This document shows, piece by piece, positions 5,113 through 47,711 of a DNA stretch of 64,000 nt (position 1 is its first letter; each line of letters begins with the position of its first letter). The DNA is taken from contig JAJEKB010020242.1 of the NCBI GenBank assembly GCA_022393335.1, positions 343,469 to 407,468 of the forward strand, written 5' to 3'. The translations under genes and the position numbers were made by a program. The notes under the pieces were generated by a model. The model saw only the letters and a program-made list of their open reading frames with translations. It was not told the DNA's origin and did no database searches. This DNA is from Macrotrachela quadricornifera. Its lineage: Eukaryota > Rotifera > Eurotatoria > Philodinida > Philodinidae.

Positions 5113-7236
5113 TTACGAACATGTATTTAAAAGAATAGAGATGCTATTGTCATCGAAGGTAGTTACCGCTACATCAGGCTTATTATCAGTATTGAAGTCA
5201 CCAATGGCGATAGATAAAGGACTAGGACCAAATGCATAAAATAATTGATCCTGAAAGGTTCCATTGCCGTTACCAAAAAATACACTGATACCATTGTCCA
5301 TGCTGTTGACTACTGCTAGATCGACTTTAAGATCATTATTTAGATCACCTGACAAAATTGATGATGGGTGAGCACCAGCTGAATACTTTACTTGTTTGTC
5401 AAAAGTCCCGTCTCCCCTACCGAGCAGTACACTTATATCACGGTTATTACAGTTGGCAACTGCTAAATCCAGTTTCGTATCATTATTAAAATCATTTTCT
5501 GTTATTGAGCATGGAAAAAAACCAGTGGCATAGTTTATTGGTTTCTGAAATGTACCATTTCCATTCCCAAGCAGCACGATAATTCCAAGTGTATAAGTGT
5601 TGGTCACTGCCAAATCAAGTTTCCTATCATTATTAAAATCACCTACTACCATAGCCGCTGGATTACCTCCAATTTCATACTTTATTTGATTTTGAAACGT
5701 TCCATTACCGTTACCAAGCAGCAAACTGATGCTTTTGGCGTCACAATTGGCTACCACTAAATCTAATTTGTTATCATTGTTGAAATCACCTGTTGTCGCA
5801 AACCGTGGTCCTTTGCCAACTGTATATTTTATTGGATTCTGAAATGTTCCATTTCCATTGCCAAGCAGCACACTGATGTCGTTGTCTTGATAATTGGGAG
5901 TTGCTAAGTCCAGTTTGTTATCATTATTGAAATCAGCCACGGTCACTGAGGTTGGTCGATGTCCAATTTCATATTTTGTTTGATTCTCAAACTGTCCATT
6001 TCCATTGCCAAACAGTATAATGAGGTTATGAATGTCGGACGTTACTAGATCTAGTTTTCTATCATTATTGAAGTCACCGATCGATACATCAAATGGATGA
6101 TCACCTGCTGCATATTTTGTTTGATTTTGGAACGTTCCATCACCGTTACCAAACAGTATACCCACTTTCGCGTCCTCATCATCGGTGATTACGAGATCTA
6201 ATTTGTTATTTTTCTCAAAGTCACCAACTGCTACAGAAATGCCACCATTAAAAATGCTACACCTTACTTGCTTCTGAAACGTTCCATCCCCGTTGCCAAG
6301 GAACACACTAGCACTGCTGTCTGCTAAGTTGCTCGTCACTAAATCCAGTTTGAAGTCCCTATTGAAATCGCCTACTGCTATACTGTTTGGTAGGCTGTCA
6401 ACTGACAACAATGTTTGGTCTTGAAATGTTCCGTCTCCATTACCAAGAAATATACTAGCACTGTTCGAATCAAAGTTGGCCACTGCTAAATCCAGCTTCG
6501 CATCATTGTTGAAATCACCTATGGCTACATATCTTGGTCCAAGACCAGTAGCATATGTGAGCTGAGCTTGAAATGTTCCATCACCATTGCCAAGTAGAAT
6601 GCTGATGTTGCGGTCACGATTATTAACTATTGCTAGATCTAGTTTGTGATCATTATTGAAATCACCTGCTTTTACAGAGAGTGGTAAAGATCCAGCTCTA
6701 TATTTTGTTTGATTCTGAAACGTTCCATCTCCATTACCAAGTAGCACGCTGATGTCGTTGCTTTCCTGATTGGCCACTGCTAGATCTAGTTTGTTATCGT
6801 TGTTGAAATCACCGATTGTCACAGATACTGAACGAAGTCCAGTCGAGTATGTTCTTATATTTTGAAATGTTCCATCTCCATTGCCAAGCAATATACCGAT
6901 AGTGTTATTGTTATTGGCAACTGCTATATCCAGTTTGTTATCATGATTGAAATCACCTGCTGCAATCGATTGTGGATAATAACCAGTCATAGTTGTCATT
7001 TGATTCTGAAATGTTCCATTTCCGTTGCCAAGCAGAACACTAATGTTGCTGTCTAGATAGTTGGTCACCACTATATCCAAATTATTGTCATTGTTGAAGT
7101 CATCTACTATGGCTGATTCTGGTGAATTACCAGTAGAATAACTATTAGGAAGACCGTATGGTGTTTGGCAGGCAGCTTCTAAAGTATGCAAGAAATATAG
7201 TTCAATCATGTTTTTATTATATTTGATAGTTGACAC
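5113..7236 (-). CDS. FG-GAP/VCBS repeat protein, 14 units
   Basis: A 707-residue open frame almost wholly made of 14 repeats of about 49 residues. Each carries a DFNNDxKLD calcium-binding loop followed, in 13 units, by a variant of LLGNGDGTF. This is the FG-GAP/VCBS repeat, which folds as a beta-propeller blade in extracellular adhesion proteins. The last unit ends SISILLNTCS, so the C-terminus looks complete. The first in-frame ATG (7236) is doubtful: a strong splice acceptor (cttgcatactttag) falls just before the codons for EAACQTPYG, near 7176. The first 20 or so residues are therefore probably intronic, and a 5' exon, perhaps with a signal peptide, is missing. I could not locate it. Repeats diverge by substitutions, not decay. 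Such genes are common in bdelloids and are often attributed to bacterial origin. Confidence 0.85.
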   Translation of the reverse strand: MSTIKYNKNMIELYFLHTLEAACQTPYGLPNSYSTGNSPESAIVDDFNNDNNLDIVVTNYLDSNISVLLGNGNGTFQNQMTTMTGYYPQSIAAGDFNHDNKLDIAVANNNNTIGILLGNGDGTFQNIRTYSTGLRSVSVTIGDFNNDNKLDLAVANQESNDISVLLGNGDGTFQNQTKYRAGSLPLSVKAGDFNNDHKLDLAIVNNRDRNISILLGNGDGTFQAQLTYATGLGPRYVAIGDFNNDAKLDLAVANFDSNSASIFLGNGDGTFQDQTLLSVDSLPNSIAVGDFNRDFKLDLVTSNLADSSASVFLGNGDGTFQKQVRCSIFNGGISVAVGDFEKNNKLDLVITDDEDAKVGILFGNGDGTFQNQTKYAAGDHPFDVSIGDFNNDRKLDLVTSDIHNLIILFGNGNGQFENQTKYEIGHRPTSVTVADFNNDNKLDLATPNYQDNDISVLLGNGNGTFQNPIKYTVGKGPRFATTGDFNNDNKLDLVVANCDAKSISLLLGNGNGTFQNQIKYEIGGNPAAMVVGDFNNDRKLDLAVTNTYTLGIIVLLGNGNGTFQKPINYATGFFPCSITENDFNNDTKLDLAVANCNNRDISVLLGRGDGTFDKQVKYSAGAHPSSILSGDLNNDLKVDLAVVNSMDNGISVFFGNGNGTFQDQLFYAFGPSPLSIAIGDFNTDNKPDVAVTTFDDNSISILLNTCS

Positions 7237-7851
7237 TCTTTACTTGTTCTTTCTCTTTCTGTAAAAAATTAAGAAAAGAAGAAGAAACGAATCGTTTTTT
7301 GTATTTTCAATGTGTGTTTGAGTAAATACGAGATTGGTTTTATTGGGAAAACACTAACTACATAAAGGTAGAGTAGAACAGATCAGAGAGAAGAGAACAT
7401 ACGAACATATATACATACATATAGCGAGAGCGATGTATACAATAGAAAGAACAAAAACCAATATGTGAAATGACATAGTTCATAAGAAAAATACTCATAC
7501 GTGATACACAGAGACATATTGGGAGAATTTTCAAATTAACTTATGTATGTGTATACCTTTATAATTCGCTCACTCTATTATCTTCTCATTTTCAAACCAA
7601 ATTCACGATAATAATCTGTATACTAAGCTATACCGAGTGAAAAGGGATCCAGCACATTGTTAAACTACAGTTTTTCTACCAAAAAAGTGCGTACTGATAC
7701 TGAAAATATAACACCAAATTCAAATACATCTATAATGACTAATGATGATCCCATTATGTTTTCATCCAGTAATCCTGAAGATTCAGATTAAATGATTTAT
7801 TAACCAATTATTTTGAAACCTTATAAAAAGTCATACTAATTCACCATTGCT
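7237..7851. other. Upstream region of the FG-GAP gene
   Basis: Should contain the missing 5' exon and promoter of the minus-strand repeat gene. No signal-peptide exon could be assigned with confidence. Confidence 0.4.
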
Positions 7852-15861: not shown

Positions 15862-16812
15862 TCAGTTGTTCTCGACTGTATTAACAATTGGTAGCATGAA
15901 AAAATACAAATTGTAAGTAATTTGAGCATAAAATTCATAATTTTTACGTAAGTCAAATGAGAACCAATTTCGTACAATCATTATTCCATATAAAATAGTA
16001 TTAATTACAATGTATGTAGATTTGCTCACCACACGGTCTTGATCAACAAAAATTCCTTCGATAATAACACACAATAATGTACAAAAAAGAATTTTAGCAA
16101 TCAACCGTTCTGCTCTTGGACTGCCCATTGTAACAGAAAATGTCCGTCGACCTTGCACGCGATCTCCTTCAACATCACGCATATCCTGTTGACATACGAT
16201 CATTGCTGCTAAGCATGAAATAAAGATGATATTCCATAAGGCTTTTGGGTAATTCAATATATTAGAAACATTATTCATTAAACACCATATGACAGAGAAC
16301 ATGGCGTACGCACCTGGAATCATCATGGAATTTTTTCCAATACTTGTGTCTCCAACAGAAGTAAAATTATGAACAATTGTTGTGAGAATCCATAAACAAC
16401 AGGAAAATAACTGATTAATTAAGTAAGAATAAATAAAATATACAGCAACCATAATATAATACAAATCCCAAGCTCGTTGTATGCTGACTCGATTCGATGG
16501 AATTGGTCGATGTGGCTTATCAATACGATCACCTTCTACACCCATGATATCATTGCAAATGTTGAATTGTATTACGTAAAAGTATAAATAAAGCAGACTT
16601 AAGACAAATGGTATAAATATTTCCAAGATTGATGAACGACCAGAAAGATACTGGGCAGCTCCAGCCGCAATTGGTGGCCAGATGAAATACATAGTATTGC
16701 TTCTACTAAAAGCGGAAATATCAGTGATAATCGAAGTAATCCACTGAATGCTAAATATTTCCAATAAAATAGATTTAGTCATTATGCGAAATACTCTAAA
16801 ATAGATGAGCAA
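15862..16812 (-). CDS. UbiA-family membrane prenyltransferase
   Basis: A 316-residue polytopic membrane protein with both signature motifs of the UbiA superfamily. The first is NDIMGVEGD (N87, D88, D95), the NDxxxxxxD prenyl-diphosphate/Mg2+ site, followed by RIDKPHRPIPS. The second, Asp-rich, is DMRDVEGD (D210, D213, D217). Such enzymes transfer a prenyl chain to an aromatic or other acceptor in a membrane. Eight or nine hydrophobic segments fit the fold, and the length is usual for the family. Codons are intact with no internal stop. Translation may start at M1 or at M11 (16782). The sequence is not an evident COQ2, UBIAD1 or COX10. Its motif wording (GVEGDRIDKPHRPIPS) reminds me more of fungal or bacterial members, so horizontal origin is a plausible inference. 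The substrate cannot be told. Confidence 0.85.
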   Translation of the reverse strand: MLIYFRVFRIMTKSILLEIFSIQWITSIITDISAFSRSNTMYFIWPPIAAGAAQYLSGRSSILEIFIPFVLSLLYLYFYVIQFNICNDIMGVEGDRIDKPHRPIPSNRVSIQRAWDLYYIMVAVYFIYSYLINQLFSCCLWILTTIVHNFTSVGDTSIGKNSMMIPGAYAMFSVIWCLMNNVSNILNYPKALWNIIFISCLAAMIVCQQDMRDVEGDRVQGRRTFSVTMGSPRAERLIAKILFCTLLCVIIEGIFVDQDRVVSKSTYIVINTILYGIMIVRNWFSFDLRKNYEFYAQITYNLYFFMLPIVNTVENN

Positions 16813-16997
16813 ATATAACTGTAAGATGAATGTAAATATTAGGACTAAAATCTTAACAAATTCATTACTTTAATCACTCTATCAATCACCAAAATCATAT
16901 ATGAAAACTTTAAAAACGATCTGAAAATCAATACTAAGATACTGTTGATATATTACATATTAAATAATATAATTATTACAATAAAAATTTTCATATA

Positions 16998-38909: not shown

Positions 38910-41900
38910 TGAATCCATGGAGACCCATCCACTTTTTTGGAAAGGTCTTTTTTTTCGATTTTTTTTTGTTCAAAAGGCTGATCTGGACTAGAAAACACTT
39001 TTGGTCAAAAGAAAATTAAATACTCTCTATCAAAAATTCCGAGTTTTCGAGCATTTTCTCGGAACACCTATGGTGTACTTTTATATATAGGAAAAACGGC
39101 ATGAAATAGGATAGAAATTTTTTGAAAACAATTTTTCCAGATTTTTTTGGTTTTCAAAAATATAAACAAAGTCTAGAAATATGTTTCTTGAGATACATCA
39201 GATCAATCCTAATGGAGGTTTTCAATGGTTAGTCATTTTCTCTGAACGTATCAATAGCTATATTTCGTCAACATAGATTGTATTCAATTAAATTGAATAA
39301 TTTTTATTTTCTTCGCCTCGTGGAATATAACAACTTTCATGATACTGTGCTCACAAAACGAAATCGTACTGACAACTTCACCCTGATAACCAGAAGTATT
39401 TGCTAGTATACCGTCTTCAAAAAGTGAGTCCATAGAATCGAAAGGGACACTACTATCGAAATGATTGATATTCCATTTCTCTTTAAGGACATCTTTAGAT
39501 ATAGAGTCTTGTTCAAAAATGTTGTGATTTTACACGAATAAGATTACGAGATGAATCATTGGATATTAGAAAATATCGACTACCCATCAGTATCTCTTTA
39601 TCTTTAAAAATCTATTCCAATGCCACGACGAAAAAATTGTGAACATCCGATAAAGCATGAAAAATCTGGATGCATACCAAAAGGAGTAAAGGCTGTGTCA
39701 TCCGAACTATCGAAATTTTTGATCAGTCAGTATGATGTGCCTTACCCCCGAATTTGCTGGTTATGTGCAAGATGTCACACATTTGAATCGAAGAAAATGA
39801 TGACTCATCAATCAGAGAAGCTCCACGACAATGAAAGTTCAAGTGATGATGAATCAATGACACAAGGTTCTCCTGTCAATGATGACAGAAATGATGATGA
39901 TTATGTCAATGTTGAATTTAATGATCTGAATGAAGAAGAGAAAGAAAATCCACATATGGACAGTGGTATCACAGCTGAGTCAAACGACGATGATGAATCA
40001 CCAAGTGTTAATGAAACAACTGATCCTGAATCAATGGATGAAGATACATGCCATGCTTTTTATGAACTTGAACATAAAAAAGAAAAAGCGATGGAACAAT
40101 TATCAAATGTATTTCAACTGTTGAACATAGATCCGACCCATGACAGGTTAGACTTGTAAACTTAATTTAAATTTTCTGAAACGAAATTTGTATTTAGATC
40201 AGCAGTATCACCCATTCGAGTCAAAGTCGATGAGGTATATAGGGAACTTAATCGATTATGTGACGTATTAGATGAAAAATCTCAAGTTTCGTATGATCCA
40301 AATCCTCATGGATTAAGGATATGTGAATCAAATGATCTTTTGGATGGATTAAAGAAGTTATATGCTGATAGTAATGACAGTGAACAAGTTCGTTTGATGA
40401 CAATTGCTCCCAAAGAATGGGTTCGACAAAAAATTGAAAAATGGTGCGTATTCTATCCTCATTTCGTCCGATATCTTCGCATTTTTCCAATCAAATGTTA
40501 CTAAAAATTTCTTTCATTTATTAGGTTTAAATCAAAGCCAAATCAGGCTCGACGATCGCTTATTCTTCGAAAAAATAATGGGATATTAGCCTATCCACAA
40601 TGTCTACGAGAAAATATTCCTTTAACTGATTCAACAATTGATGCTGTAATCAATTTCTATCGTGAAGATGGTATTAGTGAAACCTCATCCAATTCCAAAG
40701 ACACAATTAAAATTAAAGGACAACCAGTAGCAATTCGGTTTTTAGAAATGAGTGTCTTGGATGCTTATCATATCTTCAGTGAACGACATCCTGGAACTGT
40801 TGCAAGATCAACTTTTAATGCTCTTCATCCACGTGAAGTAAAAACTGTAACACCACATGAAACGTGCATGTGCATTATACATGAGAACATAGATTTATTA
40901 TTGAAGGTTTGTACCAGCTGTATATTGATTCGAATCTAACGTAGCTTTATTACAGGGATGGAACAGCTACTACCGAAAATGTGTCAATGCAGGTTCTTTG
41001 TCAACTGGTGGCAAGGTCAATATGAAAGATCTGATTACTCAAATGATTTGTGCAATCTCGAATGAAAAATGCTTTAATGGTGAATGTGATGAATGTCCAA
41101 CTGAAAGCATTGTAGATATTCTCACAGATAACAATATGATCGATTTGGATGATGAATGTTCATGGAATTTGTGGAAGAAAGTCAATAACAAGTTCGACCT
41201 TCAACAGATGTCTGGCACAAAATGACTCTTTATTAACGGAAATTGAAGAAAGATGGTCTCCATTCTTGCTTCACACACACATTAATCGCGAACAACGTGA
41301 ATATATCAAAGAGCTACGCTGTCAATCAACAGAAAAGACTTTCGTTGTTGCTCAAATAGATTTTTCAATGAATTATACATTGGTACGTCAGCGTGAAGAT
41401 CAACAAGGGTTTTTTAGTCAACATCAAGTTACCTTATTTACAATTCATCTGACCATTGGAAAAGAACAACGAAATTTAGCGATCATCAGTGATTATATGG
41501 AACACAACAGTATTCGTACACTGTGTACAAAAAATTTTCACTCGATTTATCAAGAAAAATTTTCCGTTGGCAAAGAAGATCAATTATGTGAGGTAAGTTT
41601 TACTGTTTTTGAAGTTTATGTATGACGTCAATCCTTTCCTTTTCTTTAGCGATGGTGCGTGTGCACATTTCAAAAACAATGCCAGCATTTTGAACCTAAT
41701 CCATCACAAGATCGATTTTGATTTGGATGCTTGTTGGACATTTACAGCTACAGGACATGGTAAGGGTGCTGGCGATGGAATTGGTGCGGTACTCAAGTCC
41801 ACGGCTAGACGTGCTACACTTTCCAAGAACATTCTCATGTCAAATGCAAAAGACTTCTACGAATTCACCCAGAAACAACAACTTGAAACGGCAAGAAGAT

Positions 41901-42641
41901 CTAACAAGGATATTTCTGGTGTTCATGTGTTCTTTCTTGAATCAGATGATGTAGAAGAAGCGAAGAACAGTTATCTGCAAGCTAGAAGTGAAAAAATTCG
42001 AGCAGCTGGTGAGAAAGACTTTCCCTTCTATTCCTTAATGTCTGTATTTATTTAGGTACAATACAAGGCATTCGAAGTATGCATGAATTCAAACCAATCA
42101 ACAATTCAACTGTTCAATATAGTTTGACATCTCGGTCAACAAAGATCAGGACATTTACATTCAAATAAAAATCCTCTTTATATCTGTTTTAGTCAATCCA
42201 ATTTTTTAAAATCAATCCTGATGATGATACTCAGTATTCAGATATAAAGGATAGTCCTCTTCATCTCCTCCTTATACTAGATTTCTGTAGTCTTATGTTC
42301 ATGGATAACCAGAAAATGACTGAGCATTCAAAACGTTCATTAGGATTGATCTGATGTATCTCAAGAAACATATTTCTAGACTTTGTTTATATTTTTGAAA
42401 ACCAAAAAAATCCGGAAAAATTGTTTTCAAAAATTTTTTATCCTATTTCATGCCATTTTCCCTATATATAAAAGTACACCATAGGTGTTCCGAGAAAATG
42501 CTCGAAAACTCGGAATTTTTGATAGAGAGTATTTAATTTTCTTTTGACCAAAAGTGTTTTCTAGTCCAGATCAGCCTTTTGAACAAAAAAAAATCGAAAA
42601 AAAAGACCTTTCCAAAAAGTGGATGGGTCTCCATGGATTCA
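38910..42641 (+). mobile_element. 3.7-kb DNA transposon with about 330-bp TIRs
   Basis: Inverted ends 38910-39245 and 42307-42641 match with roughly 90 percent identity by eye, starting tgaatccatggagacccatc. They enclose a plus-strand, six-exon transposase-like gene (39620-42168). No clear target duplication is visible next to the termini. The transposase signatures belong to a metazoan family I cannot place in a named superfamily. Structure is that of a recently autonomous element. Confidence 0.85.
39620..42168 (+). pseudogene. DDE-like transposase of an unnamed family, two frameshifts
   Basis: Exons 39620-40146, 40198-40443, 40525-40906, 40956-41592, 41650-42008 and 42056-42168 join in phase apart from exon 4. 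They give about 754 residues. The N-terminus has Cys/His pairs (CWLCARCH) and an acidic region (residues 70-150). The middle has APKEWVRQKIEKW, DAVINFYREDGIS and CIIHENIDLLLK, then a Cys cluster (CFNGECDECP). The core has QIDFSMNYTLVRQRE, YVSDGACAHFKN and GHGKGAGDGIGAVLKS, whose Asp residues probably form the catalytic site. I know this order of blocks from many unannotated arthropod and cnidarian proteins. The frame slips by one base near 41215 and again near 41500, both consistent with single-base insertions. The copy is therefore probably inactive, or the assembly has two errors. Confidence 0.75.
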
Positions 42642-42719: not shown

Positions 42720-42930
42720 TAGCAGCTCTTTTAAATATAAAATCGGTAGGAGCTGGTAAGCAGCTCACATGAGTTGGAGCTGAGTTGATCACCAACTCAC
42801 ATGAGCTGGAGCTGATCACCAGCTCACAAGAGTTGGAACCGAGTTGATCACCAACTCACAAGAGTTGGAGCTGGAGCTGATTACCAGCTCTTTATCACAG
42901 TTCATGAGCTTGAACTGTCACACCCCTAGT
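42720..42930. repeat. Palindromic GAGCTGGAGCTGA minisatellite
   Basis: Four or five units of about 30 bp of the form gagctggagctgatcaccagctcaca, each largely self-complementary. The block ends with tgtcacacccctag, a hAT-type terminus like that at 411-419. This suggests the array is the internal part of a degraded hAT MITE. Its left end was not found. Confidence 0.7.
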
Positions 42931-44244: not shown

Positions 44245-44257
44245 ATATATATATATC
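44244..44257 (+). promoter_or_regulatory. TATA-like stretch before the ALF-like gene
   Basis: The run gatatatatatatc lies about 56 bp upstream of ATG 44313. Spacing fits a TATA box with a short 5'UTR, but AT-rich context makes this weak. Confidence 0.3.
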
Positions 44258-44312: not shown

Positions 44313-47300
44313 ATGAAGATCGTAAAGATTTTATTTCTTCTTTTGGCTATTTTTAACGATACTTGGGGTAAAGAACTATGTTCAACTGGTAACTGTGTTG
44401 AAAACGAGGTACAAGCAGTTAAAAACATTAGTTTGTTTCATAATTCATGGCATGATCTAAATGAAAATGAAATGTTTGGTGTAGTTTGTCACACATCAAT
44501 CAAAGGAGATTTCGAAAAATCGGAATGGTATTGGAAAGCAAGATTCTGGTGTCCACCATTATCTGATATAAAGGGTACTTCAAGAAAGCAGAAGAGTCGA
44601 AATGATGCCACCGGATGGGCTATTATTGATTATATACAAAAAGGTGAGGAGCTTGGTTTTTTAACTGAAAACCACCTCGAAAATTCTTCCAGTGCTGACT
44701 CAAATATAACTTCTCTGATGAATGATGTCGCAAAGTCAAGTAAGTTACACATTAATAGAGTGAAACTACGTATTCTGCTTCGTACATTCTCACAATCTAA
44801 AGAGACTGTGCAATTTGTGAAACATAATGTTAAGTTTTAACGGTTTCTGCTTTTAAGCAATACCTTAGTGATAAGAAATAAAAACAATTTACGAGACGTT
44901 CTATGGATAAATCGAAGATTTTAGAAAATAAAAAACATGGCATAAGAGAGATTCAGAATCTGACCTCATAAGAAGTTAGATCTTGATGTTGAATAGAATA
45001 ATCCAAAATATTACAAAGTTCCACTTTTGGTCATGTAGAGTGGACCGATCTAAGACACTCCCTAGATAGATCTCAAAAAAATGGCTAAAAATTTTTTAAA
45101 ATATTTTATCATTCTTTTTAGGTTTTTTTCCTTGAATTTTTTTCGTTGTTCAAATTGAGTCGTATATCAATTAATAGATCTTGATTTGCTCCACAAAATT
45201 GTGTACATGATATTTCTCTTTAAACTTAAAATAGAATCGAAAAATTTCAAATACTACATCTTTTGACAGTGTATCGAGTGTAATCTATCTAGTATTGTGA
45301 TAAAATGTTAATGTCAGAAGATGATTATTAAAAAAAGTATTAACACCCCATTATAGCTCATTTAATTCTGCATCCAACCATACATTGCACATAAACTTTA
45401 AATGCTTCAAAATCGAAACAGTCAGACTCCATACAGGCTGAAGATGGTGTCATATTCTCATGAAAATATCAGAAATGCTCCAGAAAAGAGATATCAAGGA
45501 TCGTTAGCTTCATCATTTATACCATAATATCATGTCATTTTTATTCGTTATGTCATGTTGAGAAAAACTACTTTTGAAACCACGTATCGGTTTAACAAAA
45601 TATTTTACTATAACTGGAAAAATTCATTTTCATTTTTATCGCCCAACCTTTATTAGACAAATAAGGTGGTAGTTCAAGATTTTGTTGGTCAAAAGTTTGT
45701 CCTCATAGGAAAGAAACATCATATTCGGAATCAGTGCATCCAAATGCATAGAAAACTCTAGATATCATCGAAAAAAATTTCCGACCAGATTTCGCGCTGG
45801 AAGCCACAGAGAAAATTTGAGATAGAAAATCCCGGTGGGAAAGTAAGGCAAAATTTGGTCCAGATTTGTTTTTTCGATGGTGTCTAGTGTATTCACCGTA
45901 TTTCGATGGTCTGATTTCGAAATATAATATTTACTTCTTATAGAGATAAACTTCTGTTGAACAAAATCTCGATTTATCCTGTTGTTTGTCTGATATGGAT
46001 CCACTGATATGCAAGGAAATAGATTTTTCCATTCATCGTAAAATGTTTTTAAAACTCATACATAATTTTGTACATAACTTTTTTTCCGTTGTGCTACGAA
46101 TATAATGATATAAAATCATAAGATATATGATAAAGCTATCGACAGCTGATATTCTATTCTTGGCCTAGTGTTACTGGTGTCTTGAAAGGAGGTGTCTCCT
46201 TCACATCAACAAGTGTATAAATATGTCACGTGCAAATATTTTGTGAACTATACCACTGGATGTATATTTTCACGCTGCATCGAATGAGTATAGTTTGAAA
46301 TACTTTACGTAAAAATATCGACCGAGAAAGGCTGCCTTTATTGAAAAAAGAACCATTTTTTATATGTAAAATGTAATAAAATCGAATTCGTAACACGGTT
46401 TTTAGATAGTCTTCAGTGTCTTTCATTGAAAAAAGATGATTTTAAATATTTATAATATTCATGGTTTTTGAGAGCTCAACAAGATCTATCCAATCTTGTA
46501 AAAATATCAAAGGAAAAACGTTCCCGCTTTTCCAATTATTCACATTTTATATAGGAGACATCGAACTTACTCTAGTGCATGATTGCTAAGTATGGTGTCA
46601 ATACTCATTATTTAAGTCTGGCTGTTTCGATTTTGAAGCATTTAAAGTTTATGTGCAATGTATGGTTGGATGCAGAATTAAATGAGCTATAATGGGGTGT
46701 TAATACTTTTTTTAATAATCATCTTCTGACATTAACATTTTATCACAATACTAGATAGATTACACTCGATACACTGTCAAAAGATGTAGTATTTGAAATT
46801 TTTCGATTCTATTTTAAGTTTAAAGAGAAATATCATGTACACAATTTTGTGGAGCAAATCAAGATCTATTAATTGATATACGACTCAATTTGAACAACGA
46901 AAAAAATTCAAGGAAAAAAACCTAAAAAGAATGATAAAATATTTTAAAAAATTTTTAGCCATTTTTTTGAGATCTATCTAGGGAGTGTCTTAGATTGGTC
47001 CACTCTACATGATCAAAAGTCGAATTTTATAATATTTTGGATTATTCTATTCGACATCAAGATCAAACTTCCTATGAGGTCGGATTCTGAATCTCTCTTA
47101 TGCCATGTTTTTTTAATTTTCTAAAATCTTTCGCTTTTTCATGGAACATCTCTTAAGTCATGATTACAAATGCACTTTTTTAGGGCACGCCAGAGGTTTT
47201 GTAGACGATCTTGAAAAAACAATAGCGGTAAAGTACAATAATTGAATCAACATAACCGTGTAACGTACATGCTTATTTTATTGAATTATTGTAGAATGGA

Positions 47301-47711
47301 TCATCAGTAGAAGTGTATAATAATGGTATTTACAAAGGAGATATGGTCAATGGTGTAAGACATGGAGCTGGAGTATATACTTGGAATAATGGGGAGAAAC
47401 ATATCGGTGCATGGCGAAATGGTCACATGCATGGACCCGGTATATATAAATACACAGACGGGTCATGGTACGTGGGGAATTTTAAAAACAATGAAATCAC
47501 CGGATATGGAACTAAGTTAAATATCTTTGGCCATCAATACGAAGGAGACTTTGTTAATGGGAAAAGACATGGATTTGGTACGGAAAGTTGGAGAGATGGT
47601 AAGAAGTACATAGGACAGTACCGAGATGATGAACGACATGGATTAGGATATTGGATTTATGCTGATGGGAAGAGAAAAGCTACTCTTTATGTGTATGGAG
47701 TAGAAATTTGA
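44313..47711 (+). CDS. Secreted ALF-like domain fused to MORN repeats
   Basis: Proposed three-exon gene, 295 residues: 44313-44739, 47184-47227 and 47295-47711, all GT-AG and in phase. Residues 1-19 are a signal peptide. Residues 30-123 resemble anti-lipopolysaccharide factor (ALF/scygonadin family). They show two cysteines 20 residues apart (C59, C80), a WYWKARFWCP block at the loop end, then a G...SR...DY...LGFLTE helix region. ALFs bind LPS lipid A through the disulphide loop. Exon 2 (RHARGFVDDLEKTIA) links to five MORN repeats (GIYKGDMVNGVRHGAGVY type), which in other proteins bind phospholipid membranes or form extended beta sheets. Intron 1 (2.44 kb) holds a whole foldback transposon. 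Without splicing, exon 1 reads to TAA at 44840, giving an ALF-only protein of 175 residues. If the fusion is wrong, these are two genes, and the MORN exons lack a start codon. Confidence 0.65.
44892..47154. mobile_element. 2.26-kb foldback transposon, about 535-bp TIRs
   Basis: Left end 44892-45427 and right end 46614-47154 are inverted copies at over 90 percent identity in long stretches (gtgtatcgagtgtaatctat / atagattacactcgatacac). Tips are cgagacgttc and (reverse sense) agagatgttc, with TTA and TAA outside, compatible with a TA target. The 1.2-kb middle has no transposase. Minus-strand frames at 45765 and 46226 are unsupported. It lies wholly within the intron between the ALF-like exon and the MORN exons. 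Confidence 0.85.

Follow-up and report, generated by a model that had tools for sequence, protein, structure and literature searches.

The 64-kb stretch of bdelloid rotifer DNA analyzed here (contig C4065, positions 343469 to 407468 of a 450-Mb assembly; 30.2% GC), called the window below, encodes a domain of the ALF family followed by a set of MORN repeats. The best single reading of this locus, which is partly supported, is an ALF-MORN gene. We lean slightly toward one gene of three exons that encodes a secreted ALF-linker-MORN protein and carries a transposon in its first intron, although the join between the exons is unproven. The domains, their intactness, the element, and the reading phase are directly established. 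In the proposed gene, a secreted ALF domain would be followed by a short linker that carries glycosylation sequons, and then by a complete MORN domain on the last exon, the exons being joined in the mRNA. Features are given by window position.

44246 to 44255, + strand: TATA-like run with TATATA at 44246, 44248, and 44250, ~60 nt 5' of the ATG; possible promoter (presumed function)
44313 to 44739, + strand: exon 1, encoding a hydrophobic N-terminus, a CxxxxC motif (C23/C28), the ALF domain (residues 42 to 122), and a Ser/Asn-rich linker of ~20 residues
44740 to 44745, + strand: splice donor GTAAGT, which matches the consensus at eight of nine positions
44740 to 44840, + strand: read-through tail of the exon-1 ORF if the donor is unused, with the stop codon at 44838 to 44840
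44877 to 44882, + strand: AATAAA, which an ALF-only transcript could use as its poly(A) signal
44889 to 47156, no strand assigned: non-autonomous transposon-like element of 2268 nt, with a possible TA target duplication at its ends
44889 to 45428, + strand: left terminal inverted repeat of the element, 540 nt
45651 to 45995, no strand assigned: nested degenerate palindromic repeat in the element
46615 to 47156, - strand: right terminal inverted repeat of the element, 542 nt
47141 to 47183, + strand: in-frame ATG and open stretch into exon 2, within the element up to 47156; alternative start of a MORN-only product
47184 to 47227, + strand: exon 2, 44 nt, encoding R/HARGFVDDLEKTIA, from translation and splice-site scoring
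47228 to 47294, + strand: intron 2, 67 nt, GTAAAG...TTGTAG, of a size typical for bdelloids
47295 to 47711, + strand: exon 3, encoding five MORN repeats followed by a C-terminal cap, with the stop codon at 47709 to 47711

The exon-1 ORF, which begins with the ATG at 44313, gives an E-value of 8.6e-13 against PF11630, the profile of the ALF/scygonadin family (48.8 bits; curated cut-off, 25). The first-pass annotation had proposed an ALF-type fold for this exon and had staked the proposal on a profile hit, which was obtained. The cysteine pair C59-x20-C80, followed by P, and the WCP motif are also present as described, and the cysteine spacing recurs in all three hits of a database protein search (P0001-P0003; 52 to 68% identity). 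The nearest solved ALF structure is PDB 2job (E-value, 4.8e-6). In the family fold, three helices pack on a four-stranded sheet; the AlphaFold model of the ALF part, built from an alignment of four sequences, too few for a confident prediction, has a pLDDT of 38.7. The N-terminal leader is hydrophobic and, by eye, resembles a signal peptide. The window protein is like known ALFs and scygonadin (PF11630; for example, 2job) in the profile match over residues 42 to 122, in its single C-x20-C hairpin, in the WCP motif, and in the hydrophobic leader. It differs from them by an extra N-terminal CxxxxC motif and by what follows the domain, namely a linker and possibly a MORN exon. In shrimp, ALF genes are described in PMC6213531 as having three exons, with the two C-terminal helices and the 3' UTR on exon 3, whereas the whole ALF domain is on one exon in the window.

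The hairpin loop between the cysteines contains four basic and three acidic residues, for a net charge of +1, whereas the loops of the ALFs 2job and 2mdl carry +6 and +7, respectively; the ALF part of the window protein is acidic, with a calculated pI of 5.3. The loop charge is +2 to +4 in P0001-P0003 and +2 to +6 in the other ALFs of the genome (11 readable of 12 ORFs), and the window loop is the least cationic that was read. A strongly cationic loop, the mark of LPS-binding cationic ALFs, is absent at this net charge, and the claim of an LPS-binding loop was dropped. Judged by its residues, the window protein is best filed as a PF11630 member and not as a cationic LPS binder. Its negative net domain charge is shared with group D shrimp ALFs, which are anionic and whose antimicrobial activity is given as impaired or weak in passages of PMC6213531 and PMC10077183; for one group D member, antiviral activity is noted in PMC10077183. 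Unlike the proposed window protein, group D ALFs have no MORN part mentioned in those passages.

Exon 3 matches PF02493 in five stretches (99 bits; E-value, 4.4e-29), in agreement with the five MORN repeats that had been read behind the acceptor before 47295. The exon opens exactly at this acceptor, with an in-frame stop 5' of it. The statement that the MORN frame lacks an upstream ATG holds for exon 3, but it fails once exon 2 is included: from an ATG at 47141, which lies in the element, the MORN frame stays open across exon 2. The AlphaFold model of the MORN part is confident (pLDDT 96.5). Its best Foldseek match is 6t68_A (TM-score, 0.87 by query; E-value, 8e-13), and by sequence the MORN part matches 6t4r with an E-value of 6.9e-38. 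According to this model and its structural match, the exon is predicted to form the antiparallel hairpin sheet of the MORN family. The MORN part has a calculated pI of 8.95 and no cysteines. A database relative, P0124, matches at 64% over 97% of exon 3; it starts within five residues of the exon 3 start, and its C-terminal end is at the identical place. Unlike TbMORN1 (6t4r and 6t68), which has the same fold, the window MORN part may be secreted and fused to a defense-type domain.

Every component of the splice join proposed in the first-pass annotation (the donor at 44740, the mini-exon at 47184 to 47227, the acceptor before 47295, and the in-phase connection) is present in the sequence, and the three exons (427 and 44 nt, then 417 nt with the stop codon) translate with phase kept into a protein of 295 amino acids. 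Scored by simple consensus counts rather than by a trained model, the exon 1 donor is strong (8 of 9), with 8 or 9 reached by 11 GT sites in the entire window on its + strand; the exon 2 donor is poor (5 of 9). Between the exon 1 donor and the MORN acceptor, 55 open in-phase mini-exons can be drawn; three, of which two are inside the element, score in the same band as the proposed mini-exon. Among the four mini-exons whose 3' ends are no more than 110 nt from the MORN acceptor, the proposed one scores highest. When the 287 nt of host DNA were shuffled with dinucleotides preserved, an equally good path arose in 156 of 1000 shuffles (15.6%) and some path in 951 (95.1%); the observed 287 nt also hold a second path. 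Because 15.6% of shuffles do as well, the in-phase join proves little, and the splice path was dropped as proof of a fusion. The ALF and MORN domains themselves are far beyond chance; their in-phase join is not.

The best support for the join comes from conservation over the donor in the three ALF relatives. Identity to the window protein in P0001-P0003 is found in 23 of 52 alignment cells for residues 1 to 20 and 28 of 49 for residues 21 to 41. It rises to 167 of 243 cells in the ALF domain (residues 42 to 122) and then falls in the linker (13 of 33 for residues 123 to 137; 7 of 11 for residues 138 to 141). Over the donor (SSKLH), 13 of 15 cells are identical, a comparison made on protein letters, from which the donor bases of the relatives are presumed. 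After the donor (residues 147 to 175), only 8 of 31 cells are identical, and the tails differ in length. This island of conservation followed by unlike tails is the pattern expected from unspliced calls of a conserved intron. The proposal that the ALF exon is spliced to the MORN exons is partly supported: the domains, the splice sites, and the phase are confirmed, and the donor conservation favors it. It is weakened by a phase that is within chance and by the lack of a second copy or a homologous fusion.

A transposon-like element fills most of intron 1, a point overlooked by the earlier reading. Its two arms are 96.5% identical overall, and their inner columns agree at 359 of 360 positions. 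In full 60-column blocks of the arm alignment, eight of nine have 55 to 60 identical columns, and the outermost has 51 of 60. The long terminal inverted repeats that mark non-autonomous DNA transposons are present, and the longest open frame in the element is 96 codons. The bases at its ends make a TA duplication possible. No further copy of the arms or body was found in 56 other, partly overlapping loci (276 kb) or elsewhere in the window; MITEs in bdelloids receive a mention in PMC7943196. Intron 1 is 2444 nt long, or 176 nt without the element. We propose that the 2.27-kb element entered the intron after the gene had formed, enlarging it from ~176 to 2444 nt and leaving both coding parts untouched. 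Median intron lengths of 55 to 67 bp, plus a minority class of long introns, are given for bdelloids in PMC5916493. In a P450-like gene of the window (a label assigned by eye, as was the signal-peptide call), the best-scoring candidate introns are 49, 76, and 84 nt, the last tying with one of 42 nt.

The alternative that survives best, which we nonetheless consider rather unlikely, is that two neighboring genes are present: an intronless ALF gene with its end at 44840 and polyadenylation after 44877, and a separate MORN gene whose start is either the ATG at 47141 or created by trans-splicing of a spliced leader. The element would then lie between the genes or supply the start. An ALF-only transcript is plausible because the exon-1 stop at 44838 to 44840 is followed by the AATAAA at 44877, which lies 37 nt past the stop and counts against a single gene. 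The in-frame ATG at 47141 offers a start for the second gene, and a leader is trans-spliced onto more than 50% of bdelloid transcripts, as cited in PMC1925144. However, this ATG is the only one in frame with exon 2 and sits in the element, which makes an ancestral start there unlikely. Without the element, the exon-1 stop and exon 2 are 75 nt apart, with no in-frame ATG between them, and the two ATGs in host bases 47157 to 47183 are both out of frame. Because only these 75 nt would be left, a separate MORN promoter is unlikely. Trans-splicing at 47183 or 47294 would put the first in-frame ATG inside repeat 1 and truncate the domain. Furthermore, the tail past the donor, which an ALF-only protein would include, is unconserved.

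Searches of the assembly bear on the same question. The ALF ORF matches 11 places; apart from its own locus (100% identity), the closest is at 40%. For the MORN exon there are at least 152 matches, from a search in which 150 of 285 candidates were scored; among the matches listed, the closest after its own locus (100%) is at 45%. By these values, both halves are single-copy in the assembly, which favors one gene. Two points fit separate genes: the 10 other ALF places lack an adjoining MORN gene, and the genome has many MORN repeats that are not accompanied by ALF, often with several matches per gene. No MORN ORF was detected in any of the 10 stretches of 9.9 kb around the other ALF places (best E-value, 4.7), and no ALF in any of 36 MORN loci (145 kb, comprising L023-L051 and the seven longer stretches L052-L058; best E-value, 0.73), with E-values from small home-made profiles of 4 and 16 sequences. 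Among the places listed, ALF and MORN share a contig only at the window locus, on C4268 (~550 kb apart), and on C4414 (~19 kb apart). Within the ALF and MORN loci examined, close proximity of the two families was found only at the window locus.

The other ALFs of the genome (L002-L011; 28 to 40% identity to the window ALF) belong to the same family as the window ALF, but differ from it in having no MORN in their 9.9-kb stretches and, for 9 of 12 ORFs, no linker: these nine stop right after the equivalent of the last helix. In the window, the ALF ORF continues past this point into the linker, which favors a single gene. It is not alone in this respect, since the ORF of L012 likewise extends beyond the helix, into a dissimilar tail; the ORFs of L013 and L014 are interrupted by a stop, an in-frame TGA that they share at the same position. 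The ALF family is thus multigene, with 10 places besides the window. It includes the closely similar pairs L005/L006, L007/L008, and L009/L010, and an extra ALF-like ORF lies nearby in both L015 and L016. Two MORN loci on one contig, L025 and L032 (C4637), have very long open frames without interruption, of 1793 and 2931 residues, in which MORN matches are numerous.

A second alternative, less probable than two neighboring genes, is that an ancestral ALF-MORN gene has been or is being split by a recent insertion of the element, such that only ALF is now produced, with the MORN exons either unused or started from the element. Near-identical arms (359 of 360 inner columns) fit a recent insertion, although conversion between arms would look alike. 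An intron of 2444 nt is far above the bdelloid medians of PMC5916493, but a minority class of long introns is also reported there. The AATAAA is placed before the element, as the split would require. The MORN exon, however, is fully open and has a confident predicted fold. When the intact and split versions are taken together, we judge it probable that one ALF-MORN gene existed at the ancestral level; that an intact fusion is expressed is an evenly balanced proposition. The idea that the halves are chance neighbors whose function is decayed or absent draws on the frequency of in-phase paths in shuffled sequence, but it is very improbable given that both halves are intact and have relatives at 52 to 68% identity.

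The first-pass annotation knew of no described ALF-MORN architecture. This holds in that no pairing occurs in the protein hits or literature matches listed; the same fusion was also not found in relatives or paralogs, a weak absence because coverage of bdelloids in the database is uncertain. Specifically, no protein with both domains is present among the three ALF hits, the seven MORN-exon hits, and the 120 listed of 127 hits, for which the sequences of P0004, P0005, and P0006 were inspected. No linkage of the ALF relatives to P0124 was seen (longest contigs 6257, 944, and 1880 versus 2959). The viral and prokaryote contig collections scanned contain no relatives of either half, and neither an Rfam search of the window nor an NCBIfam search gave a match. 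No ALF-MORN protein is named in titles or abstract openings among the literature matches listed, and a literature search for bdelloids with MORN repeats gave no paper. The one bdelloid trace of the ALF family found in print is a table row in PMC12220480 for a PF11630 gene of Adineta vaga. The metagenomic protein P0006 has an N-terminal TIR domain (PF01582/PF13676) and MORN repeats. In this protein, MORN repeats accompany a domain that commonly serves defense elsewhere.

The first-pass annotation envisioned an effector that combines a lipid A-binding loop with a membrane-binding MORN sheet. Neither part finds support: the loop is nearly neutral, at net +1, and TbMORN1 bound no membranes or vesicles in the experiments described in PMC7725318, on which results the MORN sheet was dropped as a membrane binder. 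TbMORN1 did interact with individual phospholipids, and the same study presents MORN repeats as dimerizing protein-protein interaction modules. Because the loop is near neutral and the TbMORN1 modules dimerize without binding membranes, we favor multimerization with avidity over docking of the MORN part to membranes. The ALF hairpin would bind microbial surface polymers weakly, owing to its nearly neutral loop. The MORN sheet would dimerize or oligomerize the protein, bringing many weak sites together in the manner of an agglutinating recognition protein. We therefore put forward, tentatively, a secreted animal defense protein in which avidity replaces a strongly cationic loop by joining an ALF hairpin to a multimerizing MORN sheet. 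Such a protein would apparently be lineage-specific, its gene having been carried through the insertion of a transposon into an intron.

If the join is real, the ALF family gains a domain partner that was found in none of the searches, and MORN repeats would be present on a secreted animal defense protein. The architecture would be new for both families, and exon joining would then seem to be another way in which bdelloids make defense proteins. Otherwise, the locus consists of an ordinary ALF gene with a MORN gene next to it. In either case, the genome carries a multigene ALF family.

Other regions of the window also contain candidate genes or repeats. An ORF of the UbiA prenyltransferase family is present at 15865 to 16869 on the - strand (E-value, 5.6e-19), and an ORF of 708 residues with FG-GAP repeats lies at 5116 to 7239 on the same strand (E-value, 3.6e-106), with 147-nt tandem units. 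Five open frames in a row occupy 39608 to 42055 on the + strand and could represent an undescribed mobile element or gene; Pfam searches with three of them (39608, 41140, and 41597) gave no match. At 42749 to 42890 are imperfect tandem repeats of 32 and 59 nt that contain AGCTGG/CCAGCT-like words.
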